DNA from: Candidatus Poribacteria bacterium | GTDB taxonomy: Bacteria > Poribacteria > DTPJ01 > WJIO01 | NCBI GenBank assembly: GCA_014730235.1 | Contig: WJIO01000187.1 | Location: 1-15,491, forward strand | Direction of reading: 5' to 3' | DNA length: 15,491 nt | Shown here: in pieces, positions 1 to 15,491 of the stretch | Layout of the letters: each line of letters opens with the position of its first letter | How positions within the stretch are numbered: position 1 is the stretch's first letter | The notes under the pieces: generated by a model | Databases searched by the model: none | The model's input: the letters and a program-made list of their open reading frames with translations, nothing else | What the model was told of the DNA's origin: nothing | Position numbers and translations under genes: made by a program

Positions 1-1198
1 TGATATTTCCCATTGTATCGGTATAAGTAACTCTGAAATCATACATTCCAGGAGCATCAGATACAGAAGCTGTAAAAATGGCTTCCCAAACACCATTAAC
101 GTAACTGGATTCTATTGGAGTCCAATCACCGTTAGGAGCTTTGTATTCTATTGTGGCATTTAACTGCTCTTCCAGGTCTTCAATATCCATACCTCTGGAG
201 GTAATAAGAACCTGTTCACCCTGAGTTATTTCAGAAGCAGACAAATTTAGATCGGCGGCAACCGGAACGCCAGCAAGATTTACTGAAAGCACTTTCAAAC
301 CTAGAATGGCTATAAATTCGTCGTAAGAGACTTCGGCTAAACTGGAAGTATCAATTTCAAGATTTTCATCTGGAAGCTTATTTGTAGTGACAAGTTGAAT
401 ATCTTTAATTAAGATAACAGCATTTCCACCGCCGCCCATAGGATCGTCAACTCTTACTTTATAGAGTTCCCATGTTTCGTCAAGGATCCAGAGAGTGGCG
501 ATCATACCATTATCAATAGAAGTAAGTCTAACAACGTGTGCTCTTCCTTCGGGTGTTACCTCAAGTCCATCATACTCCATAGTAACATCGGCGAGATACT
601 GTAATAGCAGTTCACTAATCTGTTCCTGAAGCAGTCCAAGAGAAGCGAGGAAGTCAAAGTCCAGAGTAGACAAATCGCCTGTAAGTATACCTTCCAGGTC
701 TATTAGCTCCGTCAGGTCAGAAACATCTTCTTCATCTATTTCCAGGGGGAAGGTGGTAAACACAGCCTCATCCCGGGATAAGATAGTTACGTCTGATTCA
801 GTAGCGAGTAATTCAACTTCGCCCATAGTGCCAGACAGATTAACTTTCATGGTCTGGGGATACCTGGCAAAAACACCGGCTTCAACCCAGAAGGCCATTT
901 TTGATACATTCATCAATATAGAGTTAAGCTCAGATTCATCTTCCAGTTCAGGAATAAGAATATCGGCAGCTAACCTTAACTCGATGGCAGAATCAGGTTC
1001 TCCTCCCTGTTCAGCAGTATCAAAATAATGCTGAACCATATCCATATATTTACCGATAAGGCTCATGAGTATTTCTACCGGAACCTGAGAGTCCATAGGG
1101 CTGGGAGGCGCAACAACCTGGCCTTGTCCCATGCCAGCAAAGACTAACATGAATACAAGTATTAATATAGCACTTGTGTATCTTCGTCTCATGATCAT
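1..1198 (-). CDS. Secreted protein, LolA-like domain followed by Ig-like domain (3' end missing)
   Basis: The frame is open from the left edge to an ATG at 1198 (399 codons; the C-terminus lies outside). Two in-frame ATGs, at 1198 and 1192, follow an AAGGAG; the spacing is about 5 nt to the first and 11 nt to the second, and I chose 1198. Residues 4-26 form a signal peptide (RRR, then a hydrophobic run to FAGMGQGQ). Residues about 40-300 have a helix followed by strand-like segments, including LWILDETWELYKVRVDDPMG and then KLPDENLEI, which resembles the LolA/RseB-like fold of outer-membrane lipoprotein-sorting proteins. This is a judgement by eye. Residues about 310-399 are an Ig-like sandwich with WEAIF, then MYDFRVTYTD, closely resembling one domain of the giant protein at 2095-9774. 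The protein is probably periplasmic or on the surface; its precise role is unknown. It has its own promoter at 1337-1365. Confidence 0.85.
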   Translation of the reverse strand, partial: MIMRRRYTSAILILVFMLVFAGMGQGQVVAPPSPMDSQVPVEILMSLIGKYMDMVQHYFDTAEQGGEPDSAIELRLAADILIPELEDESELNSILMNVSKMAFWVEAGVFARYPQTMKVNLSGTMGEVELLATESDVTILSRDEAVFTTFPLEIDEEDVSDLTELIDLEGILTGDLSTLDFDFLASLGLLQEQISELLLQYLADVTMEYDGLEVTPEGRAHVVRLTSIDNGMIATLWILDETWELYKVRVDDPMGGGGNAVILIKDIQLVTTNKLPDENLEIDTSSLAEVSYDEFIAILGLKVLSVNLAGVPVAADLNLSASEITQGEQVLITSRGMDIEDLEEQLNATIEYKAPNGDWTPIESSYVNGVWEAIFTASVSDAPGMYDFRVTYTDTMGNI

Positions 1199-1336
1199 CC
1201 CCTCTCCTTAGTGAAGTGATCAATAAATTAATTAAAAACTCAATATAGAAAAATATTACTTTCTAAGATTATTAAAGATAATAACATTCCGCAAATTAGC
1301 AATATACAATATAAATAATATCACATATTATCACGT

Positions 1337-1365
1337 AGTATAATAATTAAATTTCCTTATGTCAA
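1337..1365 (-). promoter_or_regulatory. Sigma-70-type promoter for the gene at 1-1198
   Basis: Read on the minus strand, a perfect -35 TTGACA (1365-1360) is separated by exactly 17 bp from a -10 TATACT (1342-1337). Transcription would start near 1330, leaving a leader of about 130 nt before the ATG at 1198. I see no obvious riboswitch or hairpin in that A+T-rich leader. The promoter sits just downstream of the TPR lipoprotein gene, so the left-edge gene is probably its own unit. Confidence 0.75.
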
Positions 1366-1382
1366 GAGAGTTTTTCGGCGTC

Positions 1383-1439
1383 AAAATACTGACCCTTTAC
1401 TTTTGTGATCTATAATTGGCAATAAGTGGTCAGTATTTT
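1383..1439. repeat. 12-bp perfect inverted repeat with 33-nt spacer
   Basis: AAAATACTGACC at 1383-1394 is matched by its exact reverse complement GGTCAGTATTTT at 1428-1439. The right arm overlaps two bases of the stop codon (1438-1440) of the TPR lipoprotein gene, and the left arm lies 18 bp from the -35 box of the next gene. As RNA it would form an A/U-rich stem with a large loop and no clean U-tract, so it is a poor intrinsic terminator. A remnant of a small mobile element or a dispersed repeat is possible. Confidence 0.7.
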
Positions 1440-2037
1440 AGAAAATCTGTTTAGCTGAAACTTCCTGTATAGCAGATGCCAAGTCCTGTAAATATGTAGA
1501 GCTTGATGGATCCAGATCATTAGCACCTCTTAAAAGGTCAACCTGGGCCCGGGCTTCGGAATATTCACCCCTGTTGTAATAAGATTTGGCCAGGAGTATA
1601 CGAAGCTCTGTTACCCCTATATCATCGTGGGGAGAGAAATACTCAGATTGCGCGGACAAAGCAGCTCTTGCAGAGGCAATAGCTCTTTCGTAATCCCTTT
1701 CGGCCATATATGCTCCAGCCAGACCGGCGTGGGCATCGGCGTTTGATGGTTCCATAGCAATCGCTCGCTGGAAGTTTTCTACAGCTTCAGATATCCTATT
1801 CAGTCGGGCCAAAGCCCAGCCGATACCGTTATAAGCTTCGGCAGCATCAGGATCTGTATCCAGGGCCTGTTGATGCCTAATTACCGCATCGGAATAATTG
1901 GCTGCCATGTATTCTGACCACCCTTCGTTTATCCTCTTTTCTGCAAGAGGTACTTCATCGGCTTCTTCATCACTGCAACCGATGAAGACGACAAGCATGA
2001 CTAACAGAAATGGAAATATTATTGTTTTTGTTTGCAT
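1438..2037 (-). CDS. TPR-repeat lipoprotein
   Basis: A complete 199-residue protein. Residues 1-20 form a hydrophobic signal ending in VVFIGC, so Cys21 is the likely lipidated residue. Phe at -3 is a loose match to the usual lipobox. An acidic linker (SDEEADE) follows. Residues about 34-176 hold roughly four tetratricopeptide repeats, with the typical W/Y-A-L-P pattern clearest in residues 68-101 (AYNGIGWALARL, then AIAMEP). TPRs bind other proteins, so this is probably a membrane-attached scaffold in the periplasm; no partner can be named. The start has a weak GGAG about 10 nt upstream. It lies 57 bp after the giant Ig-repeat gene on the same strand and probably shares its transcript. Its stop codon falls inside an inverted repeat, so the last residues may have been changed by insertion of that repeat. 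Confidence 0.85.
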   Translation of the reverse strand: MQTKTIIFPFLLVMLVVFIGCSDEEADEVPLAEKRINEGWSEYMAANYSDAVIRHQQALDTDPDAAEAYNGIGWALARLNRISEAVENFQRAIAMEPSNADAHAGLAGAYMAERDYERAIASARAALSAQSEYFSPHDDIGVTELRILLAKSYYNRGEYSEARAQVDLLRGANDLDPSSSTYLQDLASAIQEVSAKQIF

Positions 2038-2064
2038 TTATTATCTACTCCATTGGAATGTTGA

Positions 2065-2085
2065 TCAGCGAACAGTGATTACTAT
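2065..2085. repeat. Degenerate copy of a 7-bp TCAGTRA tandem repeat
   Basis: TCAGCGA (2065-2071), ACAGTGA (2072-2078) and a decayed third unit, TTACTAT, lie between the stop of the giant gene and the start of the TPR lipoprotein gene. They match units of the clearer array at 13591-13625 in the same order and phase (TCAGTAA, ACGGTGA, TCAGTAA). Confidence 0.45.
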
Positions 2086-2094
2086 TTCATATAT

Positions 2095-5000
2095 TTACCT
2101 GCTTACGGCCATCTTTCTTACTTTCTGGAAATCTCCTATCTTCAGACAGTAAAAATACAGGCCGGAGCCGACGCTATTTCCATATTCATCTTTAGCATCC
2201 CAGTAGGCTGCGCTGTCCCTAGTGTCATAATAACCGGCGACTTTGTAGCCCTCATCAATTTCTCTTACCAATTGACCAATGAGGTTATAAATTTCTATAA
2301 CAACATATGAACTTTCGGCCAGATGATATGGTATATGTGTTTCATCTACCACCGGATTTGGGAAATTCTGCAGCAGTTTAAATTCTCCTGGTTTGGGAAC
2401 CTGACCGGGAACATGGAATTCCTTAACCAACTGGACCTGTCCTTTATTTCCCACAATATCTACCCCTTCAATGGAAATAAGCACTATATCCTCAAAACCA
2501 TGTTCCAGTGCGAAAACACCAGTCCATATATTGTCCCCTGATTTTTCAAGTTCAATTTCCATGGGTTCACTATTGATTAAACCAATATCTATATCCACAG
2601 GTGGATTATCCCCCGTTACAAGATCATCTATATCTACAATAATTTCCTCTGGCAGGACACCCCCTATTAACGCAAAAGCTTCTGGTATGCTTTCCAGTTC
2701 CTCATCGGATACAACCGTAACCTCTATATAATATGGATGTATGGGATTGGAAATAGCGGTCAAATTAAATACAGGAGGTTTATTATCCAGGAAAAAAGGT
2801 CCGAATTGAACAGGTGTAACGGGTAAGGTATCATCATCGGGAGTCAATCTTATCCAGCAATTGGTGGTCACAGTGTTCGGTTCATCAGTATCCGATTCCC
2901 AGGTTATTTTCAGATTATTATCAGGACTTATGTCGCTGACCTCACCTGAGACAGTGGCAGTTTTCCAGGAATTATTTTTAACCTTATATTCAAGCTTTAC
3001 GGAACAATTATCATCATCCAGATCCTTGAGGTCGTAAGTAATTTCTATATCATTTATACTACCATCAACGCGAATATTGCTAACTTCGGGCAGTGTATTG
3101 TTTATAGTAACCTCAGCAGATCTGGAAGGGCCATCGCTAACGCCGTCAGTTGGAGTGACTTCACATCGCCATACTTCATTCTTTTTTGTTTTGGAGAAGG
3201 AAACTGTATTTTCAGGACTTGGTATAGTCTGCAAAACCTCATCTTTATACCATCGGAACCTGTAAACAATGACATCACCATCAGCATCGGTGCTTCCAGA
3301 AGCGGAACATATGAGATTATCGGAAGTAGCCGGTATAGCCGGTTCAATTGCCACAGAAGCAGGTATACTGGGAGGATCATTTACCGGATCAACAGTAATA
3401 TTTACCTCCGGATCAATAACCTCTGCGCCATCGGAATCCATCAGAGTAAGGATAATATTATCCGAACCATTTTTGTCATCAACGGGCTTAACGGTCAGAA
3501 AACGTCCCTGGGACAGGATAACTTCAAAGAGATCAAAATTAACGCTGTTTTCGTCCAATACCCACGTCAATTCCCGGCCGTCTTCAACATCATCACCGTA
3601 AAGCTTAAGATCAAATTCCCTTATAGTGTCCTCCGGAACATGCAGGTTATGGGTATCAGTTGATATTACAGGCAGATTATTTTCCACACTTACCATAGCT
3701 TCCCTAACAGCCCATGAGCTTTCAGCACCATCGGAATCTGTAAACTTCACCCTGAAATTATAACCACCCAGTTGGGCATTGGCAGCAGGTTCAAAAACAG
3801 CTTCCCAATGGGGTGATGGTATTTCGGTAAATCCGGCAGATAAATCAATCCATGTATTGGCCTTAATACTGTATTGTATCTGACAATCAAGAGCATCACC
3901 GGAATCAACAGAATCAGCATCAAATCCTTCGGCGATAATAATCACAGATGAATCGCGGAAGACCTGTTCAACCTCAGGATATAAATCCACAGCCTGGGGT
4001 TTTGTATTACCGATTACTGCTGTTTCAGAGACTTTGTCATTACCGAAATCTCTTCCATCATTAGGTGTTATGACACAATACCATTGATCATCCTTTTCAG
4101 TTTCATCATCGGGGATGGTCTTCAGGTTATCATAATCACCCCGATATGTACCGTTTCTATACCATTTAAACTGAGTTCCCGAATCGGGATCGCCCTCAGT
4201 ATCCACAAAAGTATATGATATTATAAGATCGTTATCGGTCAAAGGATCGGCAGGCAGTATTACCGCGTCAATTACTCTGGGTAGACCATTGCTTATAACA
4301 ACTTCAGAGGAAGTAACCCACTGGCTGAAATCACTTCCATCGCTGGATCTAATGGCGAAATGCCATATATCTCCCCGGCTGGTGGCGGCGGGTGGAAGTT
4401 CGGTTAAATTATTATAGTTGGTTTGCAAAGTTCCGTTTCTGTACCATTTAATTTCATTTCGGAATTCCACATCAAGATCGGGATCGTCGAAAATATAATC
4501 AACGGCAACCACATTATCTGTAGTAGGAGAAGATGGCAGCGGGGCAACAGAAACCAATCTGGGCGCGCTGTTGGCTATGATGACAGGAGGAGAAGCCTGC
4601 TGCTCACCAAGTCGGGAGCCGTTACCGGGTCTGACGGTGAAATACCATTGTTCACCTTTGGCAGTGGCCTCAGGCGGCAGGATTTTTTCGTCGCTGTATT
4701 CGGACTGAACAACACCATCCCTGTACCATGTTATTTCACTTCCAGATTCAGGCAGATTATTGGGATCGGTATAGCTATAAACTGCAGTAAGGTAATCAGT
4801 GGTAAGGGGGTCTCTTGCCAGGGGATCATCGGTATACATAATATAAAGGTTGTTAGCCCTGGGAACGGGACTTCCGACCTCAACATGGGGTGATTCTTTC
4901 AATGCACCATAATCAGAACCATCTCTGGGCCTTACGGTAAAATACCATATTTCACCGTTACGGGTTTCTTTTGCAGGTAGCGTTCGCAGACCGTTGAAAT

Positions 5001-8000
5001 TGGGCATCAGATTTCCGTCTTTATACCATTTTATTTCGCTATTAACTTCCAGATCAGCGTCAACATCAGTGTAATTATAGTCGGCAACCAGGTCATTACC
5101 GCTGACGGGATAAGGTGGTGTAATGGTGAGGTCTTCAGCTCTGGGCGGCGTGTTTCCAATGACAACAAAATTGGAACGTTCTTCTATACCAAACTGCTTA
5201 CCATCCTTGGGTTTAACGGTGAAATACCACACCTGACGCTTCGACGTAGCCTCAGCCGGAAGACGCAGGAGATCATTATATTTGTCCATAGGTGTATATG
5301 TGGTCTGATTTACAGCACCTCTAAACCATATAATCCTGCTTCCGCTGTCCGGGTCATTTTCAGGGTCGGTGAAAATGTATGACGCGACTAAATCATCAGT
5401 GGTCAAAGGTGTTGATGGGGTTATATTTAGAGAGCTGACCGACGGGGGAGTATTACCCACATAGACCCTTGAAGAAGTCCAGGGGATACCGGAAACCATG
5501 CCATCCCGGGGAGTGACCGTAAAATACCACTCGTCCCCCTGCTTTGTTGCCACACCGGGAATTATAGGGGAGTTGTCATAAACGGGCATATAAACATCGT
5601 TACGATACCACCTGATCTCCGTTCCATCCTCCCTGTCGCCGTCGGGGTCAATGTATGTATAACGAACCTCAAGCTGATCGGTGACAGAAGGTTGGCCTGG
5701 AAATACTGACACCTCAGTAGCTCTGGGTGGAGAATTTCCGATAGTTACGTCAGGGGAAATCTGGGATTTTCCGAATTCTTTACCGTCGTTCACCTTTATT
5801 GTATAATGCCACCTTTCGCCTTTTGATGTGGCGCTGGCAGGTAGTATTGTAAGGTTATCATACAAAACAACCACAACACCGTCTTTAAACCATCGGATCT
5901 CAGCAGGTTTTACCTCTTTATCGCCATCGGCATCAGCAAACAGATACTGAACCTGAAGATCATCGGCGGCTGTGGGAAATTCGGGTATAATGGACATACT
6001 AAGGGCAGACGGAGGGGTATTATTATTGAGGGCAAAGGCCGGGGACGTGGCACTTATACCAGGGGCAATACCATCATGAGGCGTAATTTTTATTTTATAA
6101 TTACTGGCTTTGCGTCCTAATTCGTCAACGTTTGAAATCCATGTAATTTGCAAATCTTCACCGGGGATAACCTTTATAATAGGTTCTGCAATAGTGGCAG
6201 CAACCCATGTAGTAGAGGCAACAGAACCGCCCTGATACTGGACGTTAAGGTCGCATGGGTCTTCGTCTGTATCTATAAGGGTGTAAGTAATGGTAACTTC
6301 GCCGGAATCACCGGTGACAGTAATGTCCTTTACAACCGGGACAGCATTTTCCACCGCGACAGGAGCAGATGTAACAGGTTCGCCAAAATCATTCCCATCC
6401 TTTGGTTTTACCACAACATGCCATTGGTCACCTTTTGACATAGGCTCGTTCAGACTTTTGTCCGCCTCGGTCAATACAGTAACCTTAGATTGTAATACAC
6501 CGTTATTATACCATTCTATCTCCGTACCAGCTTCCTTATCCTCGTCTATATCCCGATAGTCATACCGGGCGGTGAGAGTGTCATCAGATTCAGGCTGGGC
6601 TGGAATTATGGATAAATTCAACACCAGCGGCGGCGTGTTTATTACAGTCACAGGCTGGGAAGTTTTCAATTCGCCAAATTTTGCACCATCCTTGGGCATT
6701 ACGGTAAAATGCCAGGATTCACCTCTGGCAGTAGCATTTTCCGGGAGGGTTCTTCCGGCATATATGGTCTGCTGGTTGTTCCTGTACCAGATAATTTCCG
6801 AATTACTCTCTATACCACCATCAGGATCAATGTAATCATAAGAAGCAGTCAGGCTGTCAGCGGTGGTAGGATTCGGGGGGAGGATCTCCAGGTTGCTGGC
6901 CACAGGAGGGATATTGTTATCCAGAGTAAAAACAATAGATTCAACGGGTTTGCCAGTAACAATGGGGTCGCTGGGTGTCACCCGGATTCTGAACTTAACG
7001 GGTTCGTCAATATTCTCATCGCTGGATGACTGCCATGTCAGGGTAATATTTCCAGGGGCCAATCCTGTTAGCGCCTCGGCAATAGTGGCGGGAATCCACT
7101 CGTCGGTAAAAATTCTCTGGTATTCTACCACAATATTACATTCATCGCTATCAGCATCCACAAGGTCAAACTTGATGGTAACATCCTGAAATCCCTGGGG
7201 TGGTACGGTGAGATTAAGAACTTCCGGGGGTACGTTGCCAATGGCCACGCTGTTGGATTTATAAACCTGGCTGTCCTCTATACCATCATTAACCTGGACG
7301 GTGAAATACCACACCTCGTCTTTTCCAACCTCCGAAGCGGGGATAGTATCCACATCATCGTATTGAGACTGGAGGACTTCGTTTGAATACCAACGGATTT
7401 TAAAACCTTGCTGTATATCACCGTCGGCATCTTCGTATACATAAGAAGCAACAAGGTCATCCTCAGAAGTCGGGTCTGCGGGAGAAAGAGTAACATCTTT
7501 TGCTACAGGAACGGCGTTTACTATTGTAACAACTGGTGACTGTAACTGCTGTCCAAACTCTTTGCCATCCTTTGGCATAACTGTGAAATACCATTCTTCA
7601 CCCCTCTGGGTGGCAGTATTCGGGATCTGTTCTTGATTTTTATAGCTTATAACTTCCTCGCCATTTTTATACCATTTTATTTCAGTTCCCAGTTCCTGAT
7701 CATCTTCCTGATCCTGAAAATCATAAACAGCGTTTAACTCATGTATAGAATAAGGATTTTCGGGAGAAATGGCCAAGTTGGAGACAGAAGGAGCGTTGTT
7801 ATTATCCAGGGCAAAAACTTCAGAAAGTTTTTTGCTTCCGTTATCCACACCGTCAAAGGGCCTTATACCTATACGGAAATCCGTGGCATATCCTGATGGT
7901 AAGTCCTCTTTGGTTTTCCATGTCAATGTCAGACCAGTAGCCGGTATAACTCCTTCCAGAACATTATTTGCCTCCCCGGTTGCCCCGACTATATAAGCGG

Positions 8001-9774
8001 AGGTTTCCACAACACCAGCAGGGCCGCCCTGATACCAGACAGTTAATCTACAGGGATCACCATCATCATCAATAAGATTATACCTTATGGTAATATCACC
8101 GTTAAAGCTGCCGTTGGCATCTTTATTGCCCTCAACAGACAGAATTTCCACATCAGGTCTTTGATTCACGATAGTAACAGTTGGTGATTCGGTAAAATTA
8201 TCGGGATGACCACCGTCAATATCCCAGGGCCGGATGGTAAACTTCCATTCGTCGTTGCGCTGGGTGGCCGAATGGGGCAGGGGATTAACATTATTATGTA
8301 CGGCCTGGTGAAAACCGTTTTTGTACCATCTTATTTCATGAGTTCCCTCTTCGTCATCCTCCGGATCGAAAAAGCTGTAACTGGCTACCAGATCGTCCTG
8401 AGTGGTGGGCCTGTTACCAAAATCATACGGCTCTATCCTTACATTGCTAACACTGGGAGGGGCGTTGCCTATTGGTATTGGTGAAGATTGAGCAACAGGT
8501 CCGTTACTTTCGCCATCGCTGGGTGTTATTGTAAAATACCAGGCTTCACCCTTTTTTATAGGTTCAGTGAGAATTGTTCTGGTATCATCGGAACCAGATA
8601 TACTCAGGCTTTTTTGCAAAACACCGTTTTTATACCATTTTAACAAGCTTCCACTTTCAGTATCACCTACATCAGGGTCGAAAAAATCATAGACAGCTTT
8701 CAGCCTGTCTCCTGTTATAGGCTGACGATTTACAACATTATTATTATCAGAATCAATGGTAGCGATTCGCAGATTCAAGGCGCTGGGAGGGTTATTATCA
8801 GCGGCGGTGGTATTGTTTATATTTACGTTGGCCGAATCCCAATTGCTATAAGAAATACCGTCACTGGCCCTCATCCTTATATTATATGCACCCTGACCGT
8901 TAGGCTGATCCTGGGCTGCTTTCCAGTATAGAGTATTTGAACCCGGACTCGCAGTGCTGCTAATAATTGTAGCAGGAGTCCATGTGGTAATGCCTTCGCC
9001 TCTATATTGCAATTCCACAACAGTGTTTTCTGTATCCTGCAAGTTAAAGGTAATCTGGACATCGCTGTTGGAATAGGACTGGGAGGCTGCGGTAATGGTA
9101 ACAACCGGAGCCGCATTTTGGGCTGTAACCCCGGCGTTTTTACTCCACCGGGTGTTTAACGTGACATCGTTGGCAATTAATTCACCCTGGTTAATGTCCT
9201 GTAAAGCCCTGATCATTATATTAGAGGCGCTTCCGCCCGGATATATATTTTCTGGACTAACAGAATACACCTCAACATCTCCAGTTACCTGGGAGCTGAG
9301 GTATCTGAGGGAGGAATTTACATTGAAGGTTTTTATCCCGGCTGACTGGTTATTGTAATACCATACATGGGATTCGGGGAAATCCCCCTGGCCGATAAGA
9401 ACTACACCGAAATACAGCTTGACATTCAGGACGTAATTTTCTTCAACTTTGTAATTGCCAACATCCTGAAGGTTTACGTCACCGGAATATTCACCATCAA
9501 CAAGACCAACGTTAAGGTTGCGGGTTGAACCGGTAGTCTGGTTGGTAAAGGTTACATCCCCTGAAACAGCAGCTTTTGCAACTATGGGCCCGATTAAAAC
9601 ACCGGATTTTATATTCATAATTGCGTATACAGGTAGGGATGTGGAATTTGATCCAGGATAGGTGATATTCCAGGATTTTTCACCAGCACCGTAAGAAGAT
9701 ATTGAAAATAAAAATATAATTATAAAGCATAATAAGAATTTAAGTTTATGGCAAACGCCACCTTTATGTTTCAT
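2095..9774 (-). CDS. Giant exported Ig-like repeat protein with C-terminal sorting domain
   Basis: About 2,559 residues. A signal peptide (residues 1-30, KLKFLLCFIIIFLFSISSYG) precedes an unrecognised domain to about 215. The body is Ig-like domains of two kinds. Type A (about 96 residues, 14 copies) has an Asp-rich loop, then EI.WYKNG, then WYFTV.P.DG. Type B (about 105 residues, 5 copies) has D.D.DPC.L.V.YQGG, then ATI, then ITW.S, then P.DG and LDNN. The order is B, AA, B, AA, B, AA, B, seven A, one WEAVF-type Ig domain, a cadherin-like segment ending VNDPP, A, B, one more Ig-like domain, and the terminal domain. Residues about 2,462-2,559 are a FlgD/T9SS type A-like sorting domain (KLLQNFPNP, AAYWD, GLYFY, RKM), implying export across the outer membrane. 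No enzyme motif is seen; a role in adhesion or as a surface fibre is inferred. The start at 9774 fits the RBS better than 9783. Confidence 0.92.
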   Translation of the reverse strand: MKHKGGVCHKLKFLLCFIIIFLFSISSYGAGEKSWNITYPGSNSTSLPVYAIMNIKSGVLIGPIVAKAAVSGDVTFTNQTTGSTRNLNVGLVDGEYSGDVNLQDVGNYKVEENYVLNVKLYFGVVLIGQGDFPESHVWYYNNQSAGIKTFNVNSSLRYLSSQVTGDVEVYSVSPENIYPGGSASNIMIRALQDINQGELIANDVTLNTRWSKNAGVTAQNAAPVVTITAASQSYSNSDVQITFNLQDTENTVVELQYRGEGITTWTPATIISSTASPGSNTLYWKAAQDQPNGQGAYNIRMRASDGISYSNWDSANVNINNTTAADNNPPSALNLRIATIDSDNNNVVNRQPITGDRLKAVYDFFDPDVGDTESGSLLKWYKNGVLQKSLSISGSDDTRTILTEPIKKGEAWYFTITPSDGESNGPVAQSSPIPIGNAPPSVSNVRIEPYDFGNRPTTQDDLVASYSFFDPEDDEEGTHEIRWYKNGFHQAVHNNVNPLPHSATQRNDEWKFTIRPWDIDGGHPDNFTESPTVTIVNQRPDVEILSVEGNKDANGSFNGDITIRYNLIDDDGDPCRLTVWYQGGPAGVVETSAYIVGATGEANNVLEGVIPATGLTLTWKTKEDLPSGYATDFRIGIRPFDGVDNGSKKLSEVFALDNNNAPSVSNLAISPENPYSIHELNAVYDFQDQEDDQELGTEIKWYKNGEEVISYKNQEQIPNTATQRGEEWYFTVMPKDGKEFGQQLQSPVVTIVNAVPVAKDVTLSPADPTSEDDLVASYVYEDADGDIQQGFKIRWYSNEVLQSQYDDVDTIPASEVGKDEVWYFTVQVNDGIEDSQVYKSNSVAIGNVPPEVLNLTVPPQGFQDVTIKFDLVDADSDECNIVVEYQRIFTDEWIPATIAEALTGLAPGNITLTWQSSSDENIDEPVKFRIRVTPSDPIVTGKPVESIVFTLDNNIPPVASNLEILPPNPTTADSLTASYDYIDPDGGIESNSEIIWYRNNQQTIYAGRTLPENATARGESWHFTVMPKDGAKFGELKTSQPVTVINTPPLVLNLSIIPAQPESDDTLTARYDYRDIDEDKEAGTEIEWYNNGVLQSKVTVLTEADKSLNEPMSKGDQWHVVVKPKDGNDFGEPVTSAPVAVENAVPVVKDITVTGDSGEVTITYTLIDTDEDPCDLNVQYQGGSVASTTWVAATIAEPIIKVIPGEDLQITWISNVDELGRKASNYKIKITPHDGIAPGISATSPAFALNNNTPPSALSMSIIPEFPTAADDLQVQYLFADADGDKEVKPAEIRWFKDGVVVVLYDNLTILPASATSKGERWHYTIKVNDGKEFGKSQISPDVTIGNSPPRATEVSVFPGQPSVTDQLEVRYTYIDPDGDREDGTEIRWYRNDVYMPVYDNSPIIPGVATKQGDEWYFTVTPRDGMVSGIPWTSSRVYVGNTPPSVSSLNITPSTPLTTDDLVASYIFTDPENDPDSGSRIIWFRGAVNQTTYTPMDKYNDLLRLPAEATSKRQVWYFTVKPKDGKQFGIEERSNFVVIGNTPPRAEDLTITPPYPVSGNDLVADYNYTDVDADLEVNSEIKWYKDGNLMPNFNGLRTLPAKETRNGEIWYFTVRPRDGSDYGALKESPHVEVGSPVPRANNLYIMYTDDPLARDPLTTDYLTAVYSYTDPNNLPESGSEITWYRDGVVQSEYSDEKILPPEATAKGEQWYFTVRPGNGSRLGEQQASPPVIIANSAPRLVSVAPLPSSPTTDNVVAVDYIFDDPDLDVEFRNEIKWYRNGTLQTNYNNLTELPPAATSRGDIWHFAIRSSDGSDFSQWVTSSEVVISNGLPRVIDAVILPADPLTDNDLIISYTFVDTEGDPDSGTQFKWYRNGTYRGDYDNLKTIPDDETEKDDQWYCVITPNDGRDFGNDKVSETAVIGNTKPQAVDLYPEVEQVFRDSSVIIIAEGFDADSVDSGDALDCQIQYSIKANTWIDLSAGFTEIPSPHWEAVFEPAANAQLGGYNFRVKFTDSDGAESSWAVREAMVSVENNLPVISTDTHNLHVPEDTIREFDLKLYGDDVEDGRELTWVLDENSVNFDLFEVILSQGRFLTVKPVDDKNGSDNIILTLMDSDGAEVIDPEVNITVDPVNDPPSIPASVAIEPAIPATSDNLICSASGSTDADGDVIVYRFRWYKDEVLQTIPSPENTVSFSKTKKNEVWRCEVTPTDGVSDGPSRSAEVTINNTLPEVSNIRVDGSINDIEITYDLKDLDDDNCSVKLEYKVKNNSWKTATVSGEVSDISPDNNLKITWESDTDEPNTVTTNCWIRLTPDDDTLPVTPVQFGPFFLDNKPPVFNLTAISNPIHPYYIEVTVVSDEELESIPEAFALIGGVLPEEIIVDIDDLVTGDNPPVDIDIGLINSEPMEIELEKSGDNIWTGVFALEHGFEDIVLISIEGVDIVGNKGQVQLVKEFHVPGQVPKPGEFKLLQNFPNPVVDETHIPYHLAESSYVVIEIYNLIGQLVREIDEGYKVAGYYDTRDSAAYWDAKDEYGNSVGSGLYFYCLKIGDFQKVRKMAVSR
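4003..6025 (-). repeat. Seven tandem type A Ig-like repeats in the giant gene
   Basis: Seven consecutive copies of a unit of about 96 codons lie here. The WY or WF core motif recurs on the minus strand near 5890, 5607, 5325, 5026, 4724, 4443 and 4163. Each copy opens with a PP or P dipeptide after Asn, has an Asp-rich loop, and closes with a V.I.N-like strand. The copies are well diverged, so this is an old expansion rather than a recent amplification. One copy (core near 5325) has about six extra residues after its WF motif. Confidence 0.8.
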
Positions 9775-9782
9775 TGAATTCA

Positions 9783-9788
9783 TCCTTC
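9783..9788 (-). promoter_or_regulatory. Ribosome binding site that decides the start of the giant gene
   Basis: On the minus strand GAAGGA (9788-9783) runs directly into the first in-frame ATG at 9783, leaving no spacer. The second in-frame ATG at 9774 is 8 nt downstream of it, which is normal. The later start also gives a cleaner signal peptide (MKHKGG, then basic and hydrophobic residues). Confidence 0.6.
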
Positions 9789-9838
9789 AAATGGTTGTGA
9801 GATTCAAGACTTAAATGGTTCAAGAAGAAAAAAATATA

Positions 9839-11416
9839 TTATTCCCATTCGATGGTGCTGGGTGGTTTTGAGCTTATATCGTAAACGACCCGGTTGACTC
9901 CCCGTACTTCGTTTATAATTCGGTTTGACATTTTACCCAAAAGGTCATAAGGTAGATGGGCCCAATCTGCGGTCATGGCATCTTCACCGGTGACGGCTCT
10001 CAGGGCTATAACCTGATCGTATGTGCGTTCGTCACCCATCACACCGACGCTTCTTACAGGAAGCAGGACAGCGAAGGACTGCCATGTTTTATCGTACCAA
10101 TCAGCTTTGCGAAGTTCCTCTATAAATATGGCATCGGCTTCCCGGAGTATTTCCAGTCTTTCATTAGTTATATCACCCAGAATTCTAACGGCTAAACCTG
10201 GCCCCGGGAAGGGATGCCTGTTTATTACTTTATCTGGCAGTTGCAATTCCCGGGCCAATTGTCTTACTTCGTCTTTAAAAAGTTCACGAAAAGGTTCAAT
10301 TAAATCAAGATTCATGTTTTCGGGTAAACCGCCAACGTTATGATGACTTTTTATGGTGGCAGCCGGGCCGTGAGATATCCCGCCGCTTTCTATCACATCG
10401 GGGTAAAGAGTTCCCTGGGCTAAAAATTTAACCTGACCGAATTTTTCCGCTTCTTCCTGGAATATATGTATAAATTCATTTCCTATAATTTTTCTTTTTT
10501 GTTCCGGATCAACAACACCAGCCAAATGTCTCAGAAATCTGACACCCGCGTCAACAAAATGTAAATCTATCCGAAGATCATCTTTAAATGTCTTGATAAC
10601 TTCCTTCGCTTCGTCTTTTCTTAATACGCCATTATCTACAAAAATACATTTTAACTGGCTTCCTATAGCCCTGTTGATAAGAGCCGCCAGAACTGATGAA
10701 TCCACACCGCCGCTGACAGCGCAGAGGACACCGGAATCACCCACCGTTTCCCTGATCTGGGCTGTGCTGGTCTCTATAAAAGATTTCATATTCCATGTCG
10801 GCTGGCAGTCGCATATTCGGAAGAGGAAGTTGGCTATAATATCTTTTCCAGCGGGAGTATGTACTACTTCGGGATGGAACTGGAAGCCGTAAAGTTTGCG
10901 CTTTTTGTCGGCCATAACTGCGATGGGTAAAGAATCAGTCCGGGCAATTACACGAAATCCGGAGGGAACTTCAGATACGCTGTCACCATGACTCATCCAT
11001 ACAGGTATTGTCTTTGCCGGGCCTTCATGCTCCTCAGCAGACTCTACGTCCAGCAGTTCTTCTGAAGCATCGAAAAACAACCGGGCTAAACCATATTCCC
11101 TGGCAGGTGATGGCTTAACCTCTCCACCAAGGGCCCGGGCCATCAACTGCATACCGTAGCAAATACCCATTATTGGTATACCGGAATGGAAAATATCCGG
11201 ATCACATACAGGCGCATCAGCAACATAAACACTGGCTGGGCCGCCGGAAAGAAAAATGGCTTTAGGTGAAATAGAGACAAGCTTTTCGGCAGAAGTATTA
11301 TAGGGTAAGATTTCACAATAAACTTTATTTTCACGAATTCGACGGGCAATCAATTGGCTGTATTGGGAACCAAAATCCAGAACAATAACAATCTGGTCTG
11401 AAGATGGATTTGCCAT
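9839..11416 (-). CDS. guaA: GMP synthase (glutamine-hydrolysing)
   Basis: Converts XMP to GMP with ATP and glutamine, the last step of de novo guanine nucleotide synthesis, in the cytoplasm. The 525 residues match the usual length of the family. Residues 8-200 are the class I glutamine amidotransferase domain: nucleophile Cys86 in GICYGMQ, with His181 and Glu183 in FQFHPEV. The ATP pyrophosphatase domain starts near 228 with the PP-loop SGGVDSS (235-241). The C-terminal dimerisation domain has the family signature [14 protein letters not shown] and ends KPPSTIEWE. The start is supported by AGGAG 7 nt upstream, and the promoter lies at 11470-11499. It is the only housekeeping gene in the window. 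The giant surface-protein gene follows in the same direction without a convincing terminator. Confidence 0.98.
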
Positions 11417-11469
11417 AAAGGTTCTCCTAGCTGGATGGATGGTTATTTATCAGCATGGAATTTACTGAA

Positions 11470-11499
11470 AGTATACATTTAAGAATGTGGAAGTGTCAA
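11470..11499 (-). promoter_or_regulatory. Sigma-70-type promoter for guaA
   Basis: On the minus strand a perfect TTGACA (11499-11494) is followed after 18 bp by TATACT (11475-11470). Transcription would begin near 11463, about 47 nt before the guaA start. If there is no termination after guaA it would also serve the giant gene and the TPR lipoprotein gene. Confidence 0.75.
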
Positions 11500-11626
11500 G
11501 GCTATTTTTGGGCAAAGTTTACATGGCATATATATTGCTAAAGATTGAGTAATTGGTTTTATTTCGTTAACTGTTTCTTTTTAAATCACGAAAAACCTTA
11601 TTATCTCACAAAAACCAAAAAGCCCC

Positions 11627-11655
11627 TTGATTTTAGCATATTGCTATGTTATACT
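11627..11655 (+). promoter_or_regulatory. Extended -10 promoter for the cohesin gene
   Basis: TTGATT (11627-11632), a 17-bp spacer and TATACT (11650-11655), with TG at 11647-11648 giving an extended -10 element. The start of transcription would be near 11662, leaving a leader of about 60 nt. A second possible -10, TATAAT at 11677-11682, has only a poor -35. Confidence 0.75.
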
Positions 11656-11723
11656 TTGGCATCATAGCCATCAGTATATAATCCTATCATTATATAAATT
11701 TCACAAATGAGGAGTGAAAATAC

Positions 11724-12536
11724 ATGAAGATTGGTGTAGCTGCGCCACTGGCGCTTTTACTCGTTCTTATTTCTAGCCTATCCTATGCCAGAGATGTTCC
11801 TATCTACCCCGCTTTAAGCCAACAAAACGTCAACGTAGGCGATGAAATTTCCGTAAAAATTAACGTTGACCAGGTTTCTGATCTAAAAGGTATTGATATA
11901 CTGGTATCATACGATAACCTGAAGCTGGAATACCTGTCCATAGATAAAAGCATGCTTATTGACAATTTCGTGGAAGATATATTGCCAGATCCAGAACTCA
12001 GCAAGACTACCGGAAAATTGGAATACGTGGCAGCTTTAGGTGATCGAGGTCCTGGCATAGATTCCCCCGGTGGAACCATATTTACCATAAACTTTCTGGC
12101 AAAATCGCCGGGAGAAGCATGGATAAAGCTAGATCCTAATGACGTTTCCCTTGGCGATTCAATTGCTAACAACATACCAGCAGTGATTGATAATGACCGT
12201 CATATCATTCAAATTGGCCAGGTATTCAGAATAAGGCGCGTGTTTAACTATCCAAACCCGGCCCCGGACAGCGAAGGTAATACAGTAATAAGAGTCGAGA
12301 CAATGGCGATCTTAGAGGATATGGAAGCCAGGATATATGATATATCAGGAGAGATAGTAACATCGGCAGAATTTGATGATTTTGATACCAGCAACGCCCC
12401 GGTATATGAATATACCTGGAACTGCAAAAACGAAGCTGATCAGGAAGTGGCAAATGGTACATACATATTGTGGATAAAAGCTAAACTTGGTTCTGAAGAG
12501 AAACACGAAACATGGAAGATAGCTGTTCTTCGCTAA
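11724..12536 (+). CDS. Surface-anchored cohesin-domain protein with C-terminal sorting domain
   Basis: 270 residues. A signal peptide (1-22, ending SLSYA) is followed at about 26-165 by a cohesin-like beta-sandwich: NVNVGDEISVKINVDQVSDL, then KGIDILVSYD, a Gly-rich stretch (DRGPGIDSPGG) and TIFTINFLAKSPGEAWIKL. Cohesins bind dockerin domains tightly. Residues about 168-270 are a FlgD/T9SS-like sorting domain (FNYPNPAPDSEGNTVIRV, ARIYDISGEIV, NGTYILWIKA, WKIAVLR). Together this suggests a short surface receptor with a single cohesin. The start is supported by AGGAG 9 nt upstream and a strong promoter. The PorV-like gene begins 17 bp after its stop, so the two are surely co-transcribed, and a dockerin gene follows. 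The cohesin call rests on pattern and on the neighbouring dockerin. Another carbohydrate-binding-like sandwich is the main alternative. Confidence 0.87.
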   Translation: MKIGVAAPLALLLVLISSLSYARDVPIYPALSQQNVNVGDEISVKINVDQVSDLKGIDILVSYDNLKLEYLSIDKSMLIDNFVEDILPDPELSKTTGKLEYVAALGDRGPGIDSPGGTIFTINFLAKSPGEAWIKLDPNDVSLGDSIANNIPAVIDNDRHIIQIGQVFRIRRVFNYPNPAPDSEGNTVIRVETMAILEDMEARIYDISGEIVTSAEFDDFDTSNAPVYEYTWNCKNEADQEVANGTYILWIKAKLGSEEKHETWKIAVLR

Positions 12537-12540
12537 TTTC

Positions 12541-12545
12541 GGGAG
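12541..12545 (+). promoter_or_regulatory. Ribosome binding site of the PorV-like gene
   Basis: GGGAG ends 8 nt before the ATG at 12554. An in-frame ATG at 12512 exists but lies inside the end of the cohesin gene, lacks a comparable RBS, and would place 14 non-signal residues ahead of a typical basic signal-peptide start. Confidence 0.7.
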
Positions 12546-12553
12546 AAATAATA

Positions 12554-13597
12554 ATGCTCAAAAAGAAAAAATTAAAGACCAGTCTAAACAAGAAACTGAT
12601 CAGTTGTTTATGCTTTACTTTTTTATATACCTTATTAATAATCAATCCAACCTCAGCCTCTGATGATGGGGGCGATGCCGGTGCATTCTTAAAGAACGGA
12701 ATAGGCGTAAGGCCCATATCAATGGGCAAGGCCTTTATTGCAGTAGCTGATGACGTTCATGCAGGTTACTGGAATCCGGCAGGCCTGGCAAACTTAACCT
12801 CCTACCAACTGAGTGCTATGTATTCAAATCCCATGAATTACGCTTTCATAAGCGATACCGGTGTAAAGGATATTGGGTATCACACCCTGAGCTTTGCCCT
12901 TCCCACAGGATTTGGATCGCTGGGCCTGAACATGGCATACCTGAGTGCAGGTGACATACAGGTAGTGGAAGATGCCAGCGGTCCTACTGGAGAGACTTTT
13001 TCAAACAGCGATCTGGGTTTCCTGCTTTCTTATGCCAGAAGCGCAACAAATGATATACAACTGGGTCTGAACCTTAAAATTCTGCGCCAAAAAGTATGGA
13101 CGGAAAACGGCTCAGGTATCGGATTTGATATGGGCGTTCTTTACGCACCAGTGTATAACCTCAAGCTGGGGTTGATGCTGCAAAACCTTATTGAACCCAG
13201 TATACAGCTACTGGATGATGGCGTAAGCAACTCAGTTCCCCGAAGTATTGGACTTGGAATATCATATAAATTAATGGAAGATATGATATTGGTAGGAGCC
13301 AGTATAGATAAGGCCGGCGGCAGGTCGGCAAAATTTCATATGGGCACAGAAGTCTTACCAATGAACGACTTATCCCTTAGAGCAGGATATACCACCGACA
13401 CAGGGGAATTAACAGCAGGTGTTGGTGTTAAAGTTTCAGCAATACAAATAGATTATGGTTTTGGATTTCTCGATATAGGCTCTACCCACAGAATATCCCT
13501 TACAGTTGACCTTTCCAGATTGATGACATCAAAAGGAAAAACTCCAGAAACTACAGAAATGAGCACATATATGCAAGCACCGGAGGGCGATCAGTAA
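12554..13597 (+). CDS. PorV/UPF0164-like outer-membrane beta-barrel protein
   Basis: 347 residues. A basic N-terminus and a hydrophobic signal peptide (about 1-36, ending PTSAS) precede the family hallmark at 51-80: GVRPISMGKAFIAVADD, then YWNPAGLANL. Alternating amphipathic strands fill the rest, as in a FadL-like outer-membrane barrel. In species with type IX secretion, PorV is the outer-membrane partner that receives proteins bearing a C-terminal sorting domain; many FCB and candidate-phylum genomes have related proteins whose job is less clear. Placement 17 bp after a gene whose product carries such a sorting domain supports a role in its export or anchoring (inference). The last barrel-like strand ends near residue 320 (HRISLTVDLS), and about 25 hydrophilic residues follow, so the C-terminus lacks the usual terminal aromatic. 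Its stop codon lies inside a 7-bp tandem repeat. Confidence 0.85.
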   Translation: MLKKKKLKTSLNKKLISCLCFTFLYTLLIINPTSASDDGGDAGAFLKNGIGVRPISMGKAFIAVADDVHAGYWNPAGLANLTSYQLSAMYSNPMNYAFISDTGVKDIGYHTLSFALPTGFGSLGLNMAYLSAGDIQVVEDASGPTGETFSNSDLGFLLSYARSATNDIQLGLNLKILRQKVWTENGSGIGFDMGVLYAPVYNLKLGLMLQNLIEPSIQLLDDGVSNSVPRSIGLGISYKLMEDMILVGASIDKAGGRSAKFHMGTEVLPMNDLSLRAGYTTDTGELTAGVGVKVSAIQIDYGFGFLDIGSTHRISLTVDLSRLMTSKGKTPETTEMSTYMQAPEGDQ

Positions 13598-13625
13598 TCA
13601 GTGATCAGTAAACGGTGATCAGTAA
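13591..13625. repeat. Tandem array of five 7-bp TCAGTRA units
   Basis: The units are TCAGTAA (13591), TCAGTGA (13598), TCAGTAA (13605), ACGGTGA (13612) and TCAGTAA (13619), directly adjoining. The first contains the stop codon of the PorV-like gene. Overlapping units create the palindrome TGATCA. A decayed relative lies at 2065-2085. Confidence 0.8.
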
Positions 13626-13708
13626 TGAGGAATTGTAAATTGAAATTCATTAATAAATGATTTTCAATAATAAATTTGAAGTTTTCACCGGGCTAAAAAA
13701 CCCCTTCA

Positions 13709-13725
13709 CCCCCTTATTAAGGGGG
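13709..13725. repeat. C/G-rich palindrome CCCCCTT-ATT-AAGGGGG
   Basis: A perfect 7-bp stem with a 3-nt loop, in the spacer between the PorV-like and dockerin genes. It is G+C-rich in an A+T-rich spacer. No T-run follows on either strand, so it does not look like a standard intrinsic terminator, though the hairpin could slow polymerase or protect RNA ends. It resembles short dispersed intergenic palindromes found in many genomes. Confidence 0.6.
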
Positions 13726-13809
13726 GAATGGACTTCGCCCATTAGAAAAAAGTTGTATATATTTGAAAGTTACCAAACATTAAAAATAATATTCTACAGG
13801 GAAAACAAA

Positions 13810-15491
13810 ATGAATAAAAACGAAAGAAATTTGCAGGCATTTCCCCCGCACTTATTTAAAATTTTACTTATTATACCTCTGTTTATAATATTCAGTCTAT
13901 CCCTGGCCCAGGGTGCAAATATATCAGGCAAAGTCCAGATAGAGGGCAGAACAGACCTGAGCGGAGTATTAATAACCGTTCAGGGGGTTAGTCTATCAGG
14001 AATTACCAAAGAGGACGGAACATATTATATACAGGACGTTCCATCAGGCTCTTTTACTCTGGTAGCTCAAAAACCTGGCTGCATTGTAGAGGTGCAGGAC
14101 ATAACTGTAGGTATTGATAACACCCAGGCAGATTTTAACCTAATCCCTGGTGACCTGAAAATTGACAACCAGATCAACCTGCTGGACAGACTTATGTTAT
14201 CCAGGGCATGGGGAGCTCAATCAGGCGACGCGAACTGGGATGATATGCTGGATATATATGAGGATGACGTTATAGACAATAACGATCTGGATCTGCTTAT
14301 ATCTCACTGGAAAAAGGGTAATTCCAATATACAGTTGGGGGCTTTGATGGTGGCATCAGAACCCAGCGGAGCGTCAATATTAATTAACGGAGCGGATACC
14401 GGAAAAACTACACCTCACAGCTTTACAGGTATCGTTACAGGTCAATATGTTATTACATTAATGGTGGAAAATTACGCCCCGGGTGTTGCTGAAGCACAAA
14501 TTTTAGATGGGGAAACAACCCAGATTGATATGATACTGGACGATCAACCGCCGGAGTTCGCCAACTGGGAATTAGATCCTGCAAATTTAACCGAGGATAC
14601 GCAGGGAAGACTCAGGATATCAATACAGGTTATAGACCAGGGAGGAAGCGGTCTATCAAATAATCCCCCGCAGTTTGACTACCACGTAGGATCAGACACA
14701 AAATATAACGGATATGAAAATATGACAAAAGAATCCGGGGATACCTGGTATTTTGAAATACCTGAACCGGTACAATCATGGAACGCCCTTCGAGGGGAAA
14801 TGGTGTTCTTTAAGGCAAAAGCAGACGATGCAGCAGGAAACGAGGCAGAAAGTCAGGAACAAACAGAAATAATAGATGATATTAATGATAAACCAATAGT
14901 AAATCTTACAAGCGCTATAAATCCCTGGGAGCGGGGATTAATTATAATACAGGCAGAGGCTGATGACAGCGACGGAAATATAACCAGCGTAAAATTTGAA
15001 TACAGCCTTGACAACTCCCTATGGCAGCAGATCGGTAATATAGATACAACATCACCCTACTCAGTACCCTGGGACACCACTTCAACGATACCAGCAGTTG
15101 ATGACAGCGTATGGGTAAGAGCTATTGCAACAGATAATGGAGGCCTGACAGATCTGGACGTTATTGCTGACAGCTTTAGAATTGATAACCAACCTCCCTC
15201 AACAACCCATGATTATGATGGTCAATGGAAAAACGAAAACTTCACCATAAACCTAAGCGCAGACGATGGAAGCGGCGTAGGTCTGGCAAAGATAGCATAT
15301 GTATTAAATAGCGGTAATATTCAGGAATTCGAGATAAACGGACAGCGATCTATATCAGTAAATATTATATCAGATAGCAGCACAAACTCCATTGAATACT
15401 GGAGTATTGACGCTCTGGGTAACGAAGAATCCCACCAGACACTATCCAACATTAAGCTGGATAAAACCCCGCCGGTATTCGCCAACTGGCA
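13810..15491 (+). CDS. Exported dockerin protein with PEGA and Ig-like domains (3' end missing)
   Basis: 560 codons are visible; the frame runs off the right edge. A signal peptide (about 1-36, ending SLSLAQG) leads into a carboxypeptidase-regulatory-like sandwich (37-112; SGVLITVQG, GTYYIQDVPSGSFTL). Residues 113-169 form a type I dockerin: the first calcium loop is DLKIDNQINLLD (115-126) with helix RLMLSRAWG, and the second is DIYEDDVIDNND (148-159) with helix LDLLISHWKK. Next come a PEGA domain (177-244; SEPSGASILINGADTGKTTP), two Ig-like domains (about 246-355 and 361-458), and an OmpL47/Big_3-like domain (461-554; EYWSIDALGN, KLDKTPP). The last codons, PPVFANW, begin another copy of the domain starting at 248. 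The start has a modest AGGGA 7 nt upstream. No catalytic domain is visible. It probably docks on the cohesin encoded two genes upstream. Confidence 0.87.
   Translation, partial: MNKNERNLQAFPPHLFKILLIIPLFIIFSLSLAQGANISGKVQIEGRTDLSGVLITVQGVSLSGITKEDGTYYIQDVPSGSFTLVAQKPGCIVEVQDITVGIDNTQADFNLIPGDLKIDNQINLLDRLMLSRAWGAQSGDANWDDMLDIYEDDVIDNNDLDLLISHWKKGNSNIQLGALMVASEPSGASILINGADTGKTTPHSFTGIVTGQYVITLMVENYAPGVAEAQILDGETTQIDMILDDQPPEFANWELDPANLTEDTQGRLRISIQVIDQGGSGLSNNPPQFDYHVGSDTKYNGYENMTKESGDTWYFEIPEPVQSWNALRGEMVFFKAKADDAAGNEAESQEQTEIIDDINDKPIVNLTSAINPWERGLIIIQAEADDSDGNITSVKFEYSLDNSLWQQIGNIDTTSPYSVPWDTTSTIPAVDDSVWVRAIATDNGGLTDLDVIADSFRIDNQPPSTTHDYDGQWKNENFTINLSADDGSGVGLAKIAYVLNSGNIQEFEINGQRSISVNIISDSSTNSIEYWSIDALGNEESHQTLSNIKLDKTPPVFANW

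Follow-up and report, generated by a model that had tools for sequence, protein, structure and literature searches.

Two things define a cellulosome, a scaffoldin with several cohesins and an array of dockerin-bearing enzymes; clostridial scaffoldins are anchored to the Gram-positive wall through SLH domains or by sortase. A second kind of surface assembly is known from type IX secretion (T9SS), where PorV and PorQ keep PorU and PorZ, respectively, at the cell surface (PMC5562754). Type A C-terminal domains are reported all to use one PorV, whereas the type B cargos of Flavobacterium johnsoniae have their own PorP/SprF shuttle, the gene for which often adjoins the cargo gene, directly downstream (PMC12618676). 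In Ca. Stygibacter (Cloacimonadota), a scaffoldin that carries cohesins and a sorting domain has been described, and its attachment to the surface by a T9SS has been inferred (PMC8542988). Poribacteria themselves were found to have proteins with type IX sorting tails, and the secretion genes were not found (Kamke et al. 2014, PMC3909097).

Here we analyse a locus from a Poribacteria genome in which a cohesin gene stands directly upstream of a gene for a PorV/PorQ-family barrel. The window, that is, the whole stretch of DNA analysed (positions 1-15,491), is a complete contig (C112) of a fragmented metagenome-assembled genome (MAG) of 5.5 Mb in 451 contigs, 91.6% complete. The reading we favour, with moderate confidence and by analogy to the systems above, is that genes 1 and 2 form a type IX-like pair of cargo and dedicated anchor, which would present a single cohesin on the outside of the cell to receive dockerin proteins.

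Gene order and domains at the locus

Three consecutive genes lie on the forward strand. Gene 1 (11724..12536) encodes a secreted cohesin protein of 270 aa with a signal peptide, a cohesin domain (residues 34-161; 11823..12206) and a C-terminal Ig-like domain of the FlgD/T9SS sorting type (residues 168-270; 12225..12533) that ends in KIAVLR. After a gap of 17 nt comes gene 2 (12554..13597), which encodes an outer-membrane barrel of 347 aa, and after a further 212 nt comes gene 3 (13810..15491), which encodes a large surface-type protein cut by the contig end. The parts of gene 3 are a signal peptide, a CarboxypepD_reg beta-sandwich domain (13921..14139; PF13620, 39.7 bits, cut-off 32.3), a dockerin-like segment (14146..14304), a PEGA domain (14338..14538; PF08308, 44.7 bits, cut-off 20.8) and Ig repeats. 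A first-pass annotation of this DNA had placed a cohesin gene, a PorV-like gene and a dockerin-bearing gene side by side on one strand in this order, and the open reading frames confirm the arrangement. Elsewhere in the window, the reverse strand (2095-9783) encodes a 2,562-aa Ig-repeat protein that has a sorting tail of the RKM class and no adjoining PorV gene. A search against PHROGs gave no matches.

The cohesin-like domain that had been noticed in gene 1 is solid at the level of sequence: the Pfam Cohesin profile (PF00963) gives 41.8 bits (E 1.6e-10, cut-off 24.1), and 37.9 bits for the ortholog in a relative. Searching solved structures by sequence returned marginal cohesin and FlgD chains (E 0.14 to 0.99). 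The AlphaFold model, built from an alignment of two sequences, is of low confidence (mean pLDDT 46); the predicted secondary structure is nearly all beta, which we do not count as proof. The protein has one cohesin and no dockerin.

The PorV-like identity of gene 2 also holds, at the level of the family. It scores 140.8 bits against the NCBIfam PorV/PorQ family model NF033709 (cut-off 90), and falls short of both equivalog models, with 49.4 bits for PorV (NF033710, cut-off 250) and 71.9 bits for PorQ (NF033711, cut-off 220). PorV is also the marginal hit among solved structures (E 0.45). An alternative start at 12512 was set aside; the start at 12554 is likelier, being preceded by a Shine-Dalgarno-like GGGAGAA, followed by a signal peptide and equivalent to the start of the ortholog.

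A survey of related genomes for the three-gene order, which had been proposed as a check, found it kept in a second family. The relative (G001; it includes contig DTPJ01000400.1, Candidatus Poribacteria SpSt-970) is the only other genome of the same order in the comparison and belongs to a different family. Identity is 55% for gene 1 (ortholog at L097/L137:220-1023), 60% for gene 2 and 53% for gene 3 over the shared part, and genes 1 and 2 are again tightly spaced, about 15 nt apart. Gene 3 of the relative, also truncated, extends over more than 2710 aa; beyond the shared part there is a lipase/esterase-like match, a weak one. Among the other 82 Poribacteria genomes, we found no full-length gene 1 (matches covered mainly the cohesin or the tail), and in a search of the phylum the N-terminus of gene 3 had no strong match except in the relative. 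A contig search with genes 1 and 2 as the query returned the known relative and one Elusimicrobia tail match, nothing more.

Between genes 2 and 3, at 13586-13629, there are three copies of GATCAGTAA spaced by 14 nt; the relative has a different short repeat at the equivalent position.

The sorting-type tail and its pairing with PorV-family genes

The C-terminal domain of gene 1 (residues ~168-270) was absent from the first-pass annotation. Its last 100 residues match the model ends of NF033707 (PorU) and NF052228 (PorZ), and there are weak matches to FlgD_ig and Por_Secre_tail; all of the matches of gene 1 to sorting-domain models are below the curated cut-offs. For the type A models TIGR04183 and PF18962, the scores are 19.2 (cut-off 23) and 19.6 bits (cut-off 27). 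A profile made locally from tails matches with E 2.8e-23, a value to be read with the tail of gene 1 among the profile seeds. From the profiles and a tree of tails, we assign the domain to a PorU/PorZ-like class.

Similar tails recur beside similar barrels. A genome-wide search found about 20 PorV-family genes, and 8 of the 17 with a readable upstream neighbour lie directly downstream, on the same strand, of a gene with a FlgD/T9SS-type tail; a ninth pair is in the reverse order. For this count, which takes the PorV genes as its starting set, the binomial chance of 8 in 17 is 2e-12 to 1e-8 if tail genes make up 1-3% of all genes, a background estimated by setting the 47 tails detected against a gene number taken to be several thousand. 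The relative has the same pairing at three loci. One further protein, of 5,436 aa with a type B-like sorting tail (C249:2279-18589), is flanked by two PorV-family genes. One of these comes after a 942-aa protein that also has a tail, so that two cargo/barrel pairs would stand in a row.

In the tree of 51 tails, which was built on about 100 columns and has few firm forks, a clade of 33 tails of the FNPETWIPY...RKM type (support 80/91) takes in every one of the 13 tails that belong to other cohesin or dockerin proteins, and the 8 PorV-paired tails all fall outside it. Thus, of the cohesin proteins found in this genome, gene 1 alone combines a PorU-like tail with a PorV gene of its own. The tree replaced a division by the TWIP motif alone (0/25 versus 7/22 paired, Fisher p 0.003), which was too strict and had misfiled tails with the variants DVWIP, EVWIP and ETWVP.

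Components of a possible secretion route are encoded in the same genome. A SprA-like protein of 2300 aa (C368:46635-53537; L115:3635-10537) scores 182 bits against a cut-off of 200, in four stretches along the model, and the best of the PorU-like proteins scores 409.5 (cut-off 420). SprA-like matches, mostly to proteins of about 2,150-2,300 aa, occur in 83 of 84 Poribacteria genomes, all but one of them under the curated cut-off. The GldM profile TIGR03517 had no match in the genome, and it was silent in the controls too.

With these parts, the favoured reading would work as follows. Gene 1 would be exported by Sec and would cross the outer membrane through the SprA-like translocon by means of its C-terminal Ig-like domain. 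The gene 2 barrel would then take it from the translocon and retain it at the surface, as PorV does with PorU and PorQ with PorZ, which would leave a single outward-facing cohesin as a receptor for dockerin-bearing proteins. That the cohesin protein is held at the surface beside the PorV-like barrel had already been suggested; because of the T9SS-type tail of gene 1 and the recurring tail/PorV pairs, the support for this claim is now stronger than when it was made.

The same tail also fits another account, which we consider unlikely: the cohesin fold of gene 1 might not bind dockerins at all and might serve as a generic Ig-like module or a PorZ-like T9SS accessory, with the adjacent PorV gene as secretion housekeeping. 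Its tail belongs with those of PorU and PorZ, and the PorU-like genes of this genome also pair with PorV genes. Moreover, the gene 1 cohesin is distant from all of its paralogs (12-25% identity only), so that binding specificity cannot be transferred from them, and the sole adjoining candidate ligand, gene 3, is degenerate. However, the domain is a clear Pfam cohesin that is kept in two families, a dockerin-like segment lies two genes away in both genomes, and dockerins occur in 84 and cohesins in 83 of the 84 Poribacteria genomes.

The genome also has a second recurrent C-terminal motif, TWGxIK. As a DNA pattern it occurs at 30 places in the genome (0 for the reversed control), every one of them within 0-3 codons upstream of a stop; examples are L215, L189 and L210, and further occurrences are at C271:20111 and in the relative (L161). 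The carriers are nearly all small, begin with what looks like a signal peptide and are often LamG-like; the consensus is V.P..KL..TWGxIK. Some cohesin proteins without a T9SS-type tail end in TWGxIK or a variant of it. The motif may be an undescribed sorting signal.

The dockerin-like segment of gene 3 and candidate ligands

Gene 3 would be the likeliest co-encoded ligand of the gene 1 cohesin; alternatively, the receptor may serve the canonical dockerin proteins of the genome. The segment in question covers residues 113-165 of gene 3, with the loops DLKIDNQINLLD and DIYEDDVIDNND. In a whole-protein hmmscan it scores 17.5 bits against the Pfam dockerin profile (PF00404, cut-off 22.9), and 24.7 bits when scored as a genomic stretch. 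Against a profile built from the dockerins of this genome it reaches 10.8 bits, where the other recognised members reach at least 31.8, and Pfam does not detect a dockerin in the gene 3 ortholog of the relative. Profile-profile comparison, in turn, gives a 92.9% probability of homology to dockerins.

In a canonical dockerin, each of the two calcium loops supplies side-chain ligands from positions 1, 3, 5 and 12. In gene 3, neither loop has ligand 3: the residue there is K in the first and Y in the second, in this genome and in the relative alike. By comparison, all four side-chain ligands are present in 27 of the 28 loops of the 14 other dockerins that Pfam recognises in the genome. Nevertheless, the segment is 68% identical to its ortholog, compared with 60% and 52% for the neighbouring parts. 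Three short helices are predicted over it, which we do not count as proof, and the AlphaFold model of the gene 3 N-terminus, again from two aligned sequences, is of low confidence (mean pLDDT 40). Given the degenerate loops and low scores on the one hand and the homology and conservation on the other, the sequence of the segment is that of a conserved but non-canonical relative of dockerins. Of the dockerin originally reported in gene 3, then, the homology stands, while the canonical calcium-binding form does not.

Gene 3 may nonetheless be no partner of the other two. Genes 1 and 2 could cooperate as proposed while gene 3 is unrelated to them, its segment being a worn linker that binds neither calcium nor cohesin and the true clients being canonical dockerins elsewhere in the genome; we regard this as doubtful, if worth serious consideration. 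The absence of ligand 3 from both loops in both genomes fits such an account. Because 212 nt separate genes 2 and 3, gene 3 may lie outside the operon of genes 1 and 2, and there is a promoter-like site upstream of it at 13763-13790. On the other hand, a search for a sense-strand terminator between genes 2 and 3 found none, gene 3 holds its place in the order in both families despite 40-47% divergence of the three sequences, and the dockerin-like segment is better conserved than its flanks. Under the favoured reading, capture of gene 3 by the gene 1 cohesin is a plausible hypothesis.

Elsewhere in the genome there are 14 canonical dockerins. The proteins among these that have no sorting tail include C365, of 270 aa, and an enzyme resembling heparinase II/III whose dockerin is C-terminal (C400:6374-9289); both are plausible candidates for clients of a cohesin at the surface.

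In total, the genome has seventeen cohesin and fifteen dockerin matches. A further reading is a cellulosome-like enzyme complex in the full sense, which the first-pass annotation had suggested in part. We consider such a complex very improbable. It would fit the co-occurrence of cohesins and dockerins in one genome, the one heparinase-like dockerin enzyme and the cellulosome-like complex inferred in Ca. Stygibacter (PMC8542988). Yet gene 1 has a single cohesin, and many of the other cohesins share a chain with a dockerin and a sorting tail (C297, C153, C66, C95, C247 and C401; the cohesin of C401 comes from the genome-wide cohesin search, not the protein scan). None of the scanned cohesin proteins is a multi-cohesin scaffoldin with a carbohydrate-binding module; they have at most two cohesins each and no such module. 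Among the dockerin proteins scanned in this 91.6% complete MAG, one catalytic domain was recognised, the heparinase-like one. In its strict sense the suggestion is therefore not supported: the features that define a cellulosome were not seen among the proteins scanned, and by these features the system is not one.

Since cohesin and dockerin occur in one chain in several proteins, head-to-tail linking is possible. Gene 1 might then found a self-assembling surface coat, in which cohesin-plus-dockerin proteins would link head to tail starting from the barrel-held cohesin; we think this improbable. If it were true, the count of chains would be fixed by that of the gene 1/gene 2 pairs, and cohesin-dockerin bonding in Poribacteria would serve to build a cell coat, not to assemble enzymes.

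Comparison with known systems

The general idea of a T9SS-attached cohesin scaffoldin is not new, having been inferred in Ca. Stygibacter (PMC8542988). What appears to be new, within the literature that can be searched, is the combination of a protein bearing one cohesin and a PorV/PorQ barrel dedicated to it, together with the wider habit of pairing in this genome; our literature search found no paper that names Poribacteria together with cohesin and dockerin. If the favoured reading is true, a PorV/PorQ-type barrel would act as a dedicated cohesin anchor, and the locus would bring together two assembly systems that tend to be treated separately. The SprA-like matches in 83 of 84 genomes, the PorU-like genes and the approximately 20 PorV-family genes also bear on the 2014 question of the missing secretion genes, and with these genes present the export route of Poribacteria becomes testable.

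The closest parallels are the PorQ:PorZ and PorV:PorU pairs of Bacteroidota, in which a PorV/PorQ-family barrel anchors a protein with a C-terminal sorting domain at the surface, as we propose here by analogy. There the cargo is a sortase or an LPS-delivery protein; here it would be a cohesin, and the PorV-family barrels of this genome often have a tail-bearing gene of their own adjoining. In this pair-by-pair arrangement, with the gene for the shuttle or anchor adjoining that for the cargo, the locus resembles the type B/PorP/SprF system of F. johnsoniae, from which it differs in that the barrel is PorV/PorQ rather than PorP/SprF and the tail is nearer to type A and PorU/PorZ.

With the Ca. 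Stygibacter scaffoldin, it would share surface attachment of a cohesin through a T9SS-type C-terminal domain, which is inferred in both cases. That scaffoldin has 3,755 aa, many tandem cohesins, carbohydrate-binding domains and dockerin enzymes to go with it, whereas gene 1 has 270 aa, one cohesin and its own barrel. The surface-anchoring scaffoldins of clostridia likewise present a surface-fixed cohesin to dockerin proteins, as gene 1 would, but unlike in clostridial cellulosomes no enzyme complex is evident here. The small cohesin protein, the adjoining barrel and the large gene 3 protein with its degenerate dockerin-like segment together suggest a surface docking site of a different build from the classical cellulosome.
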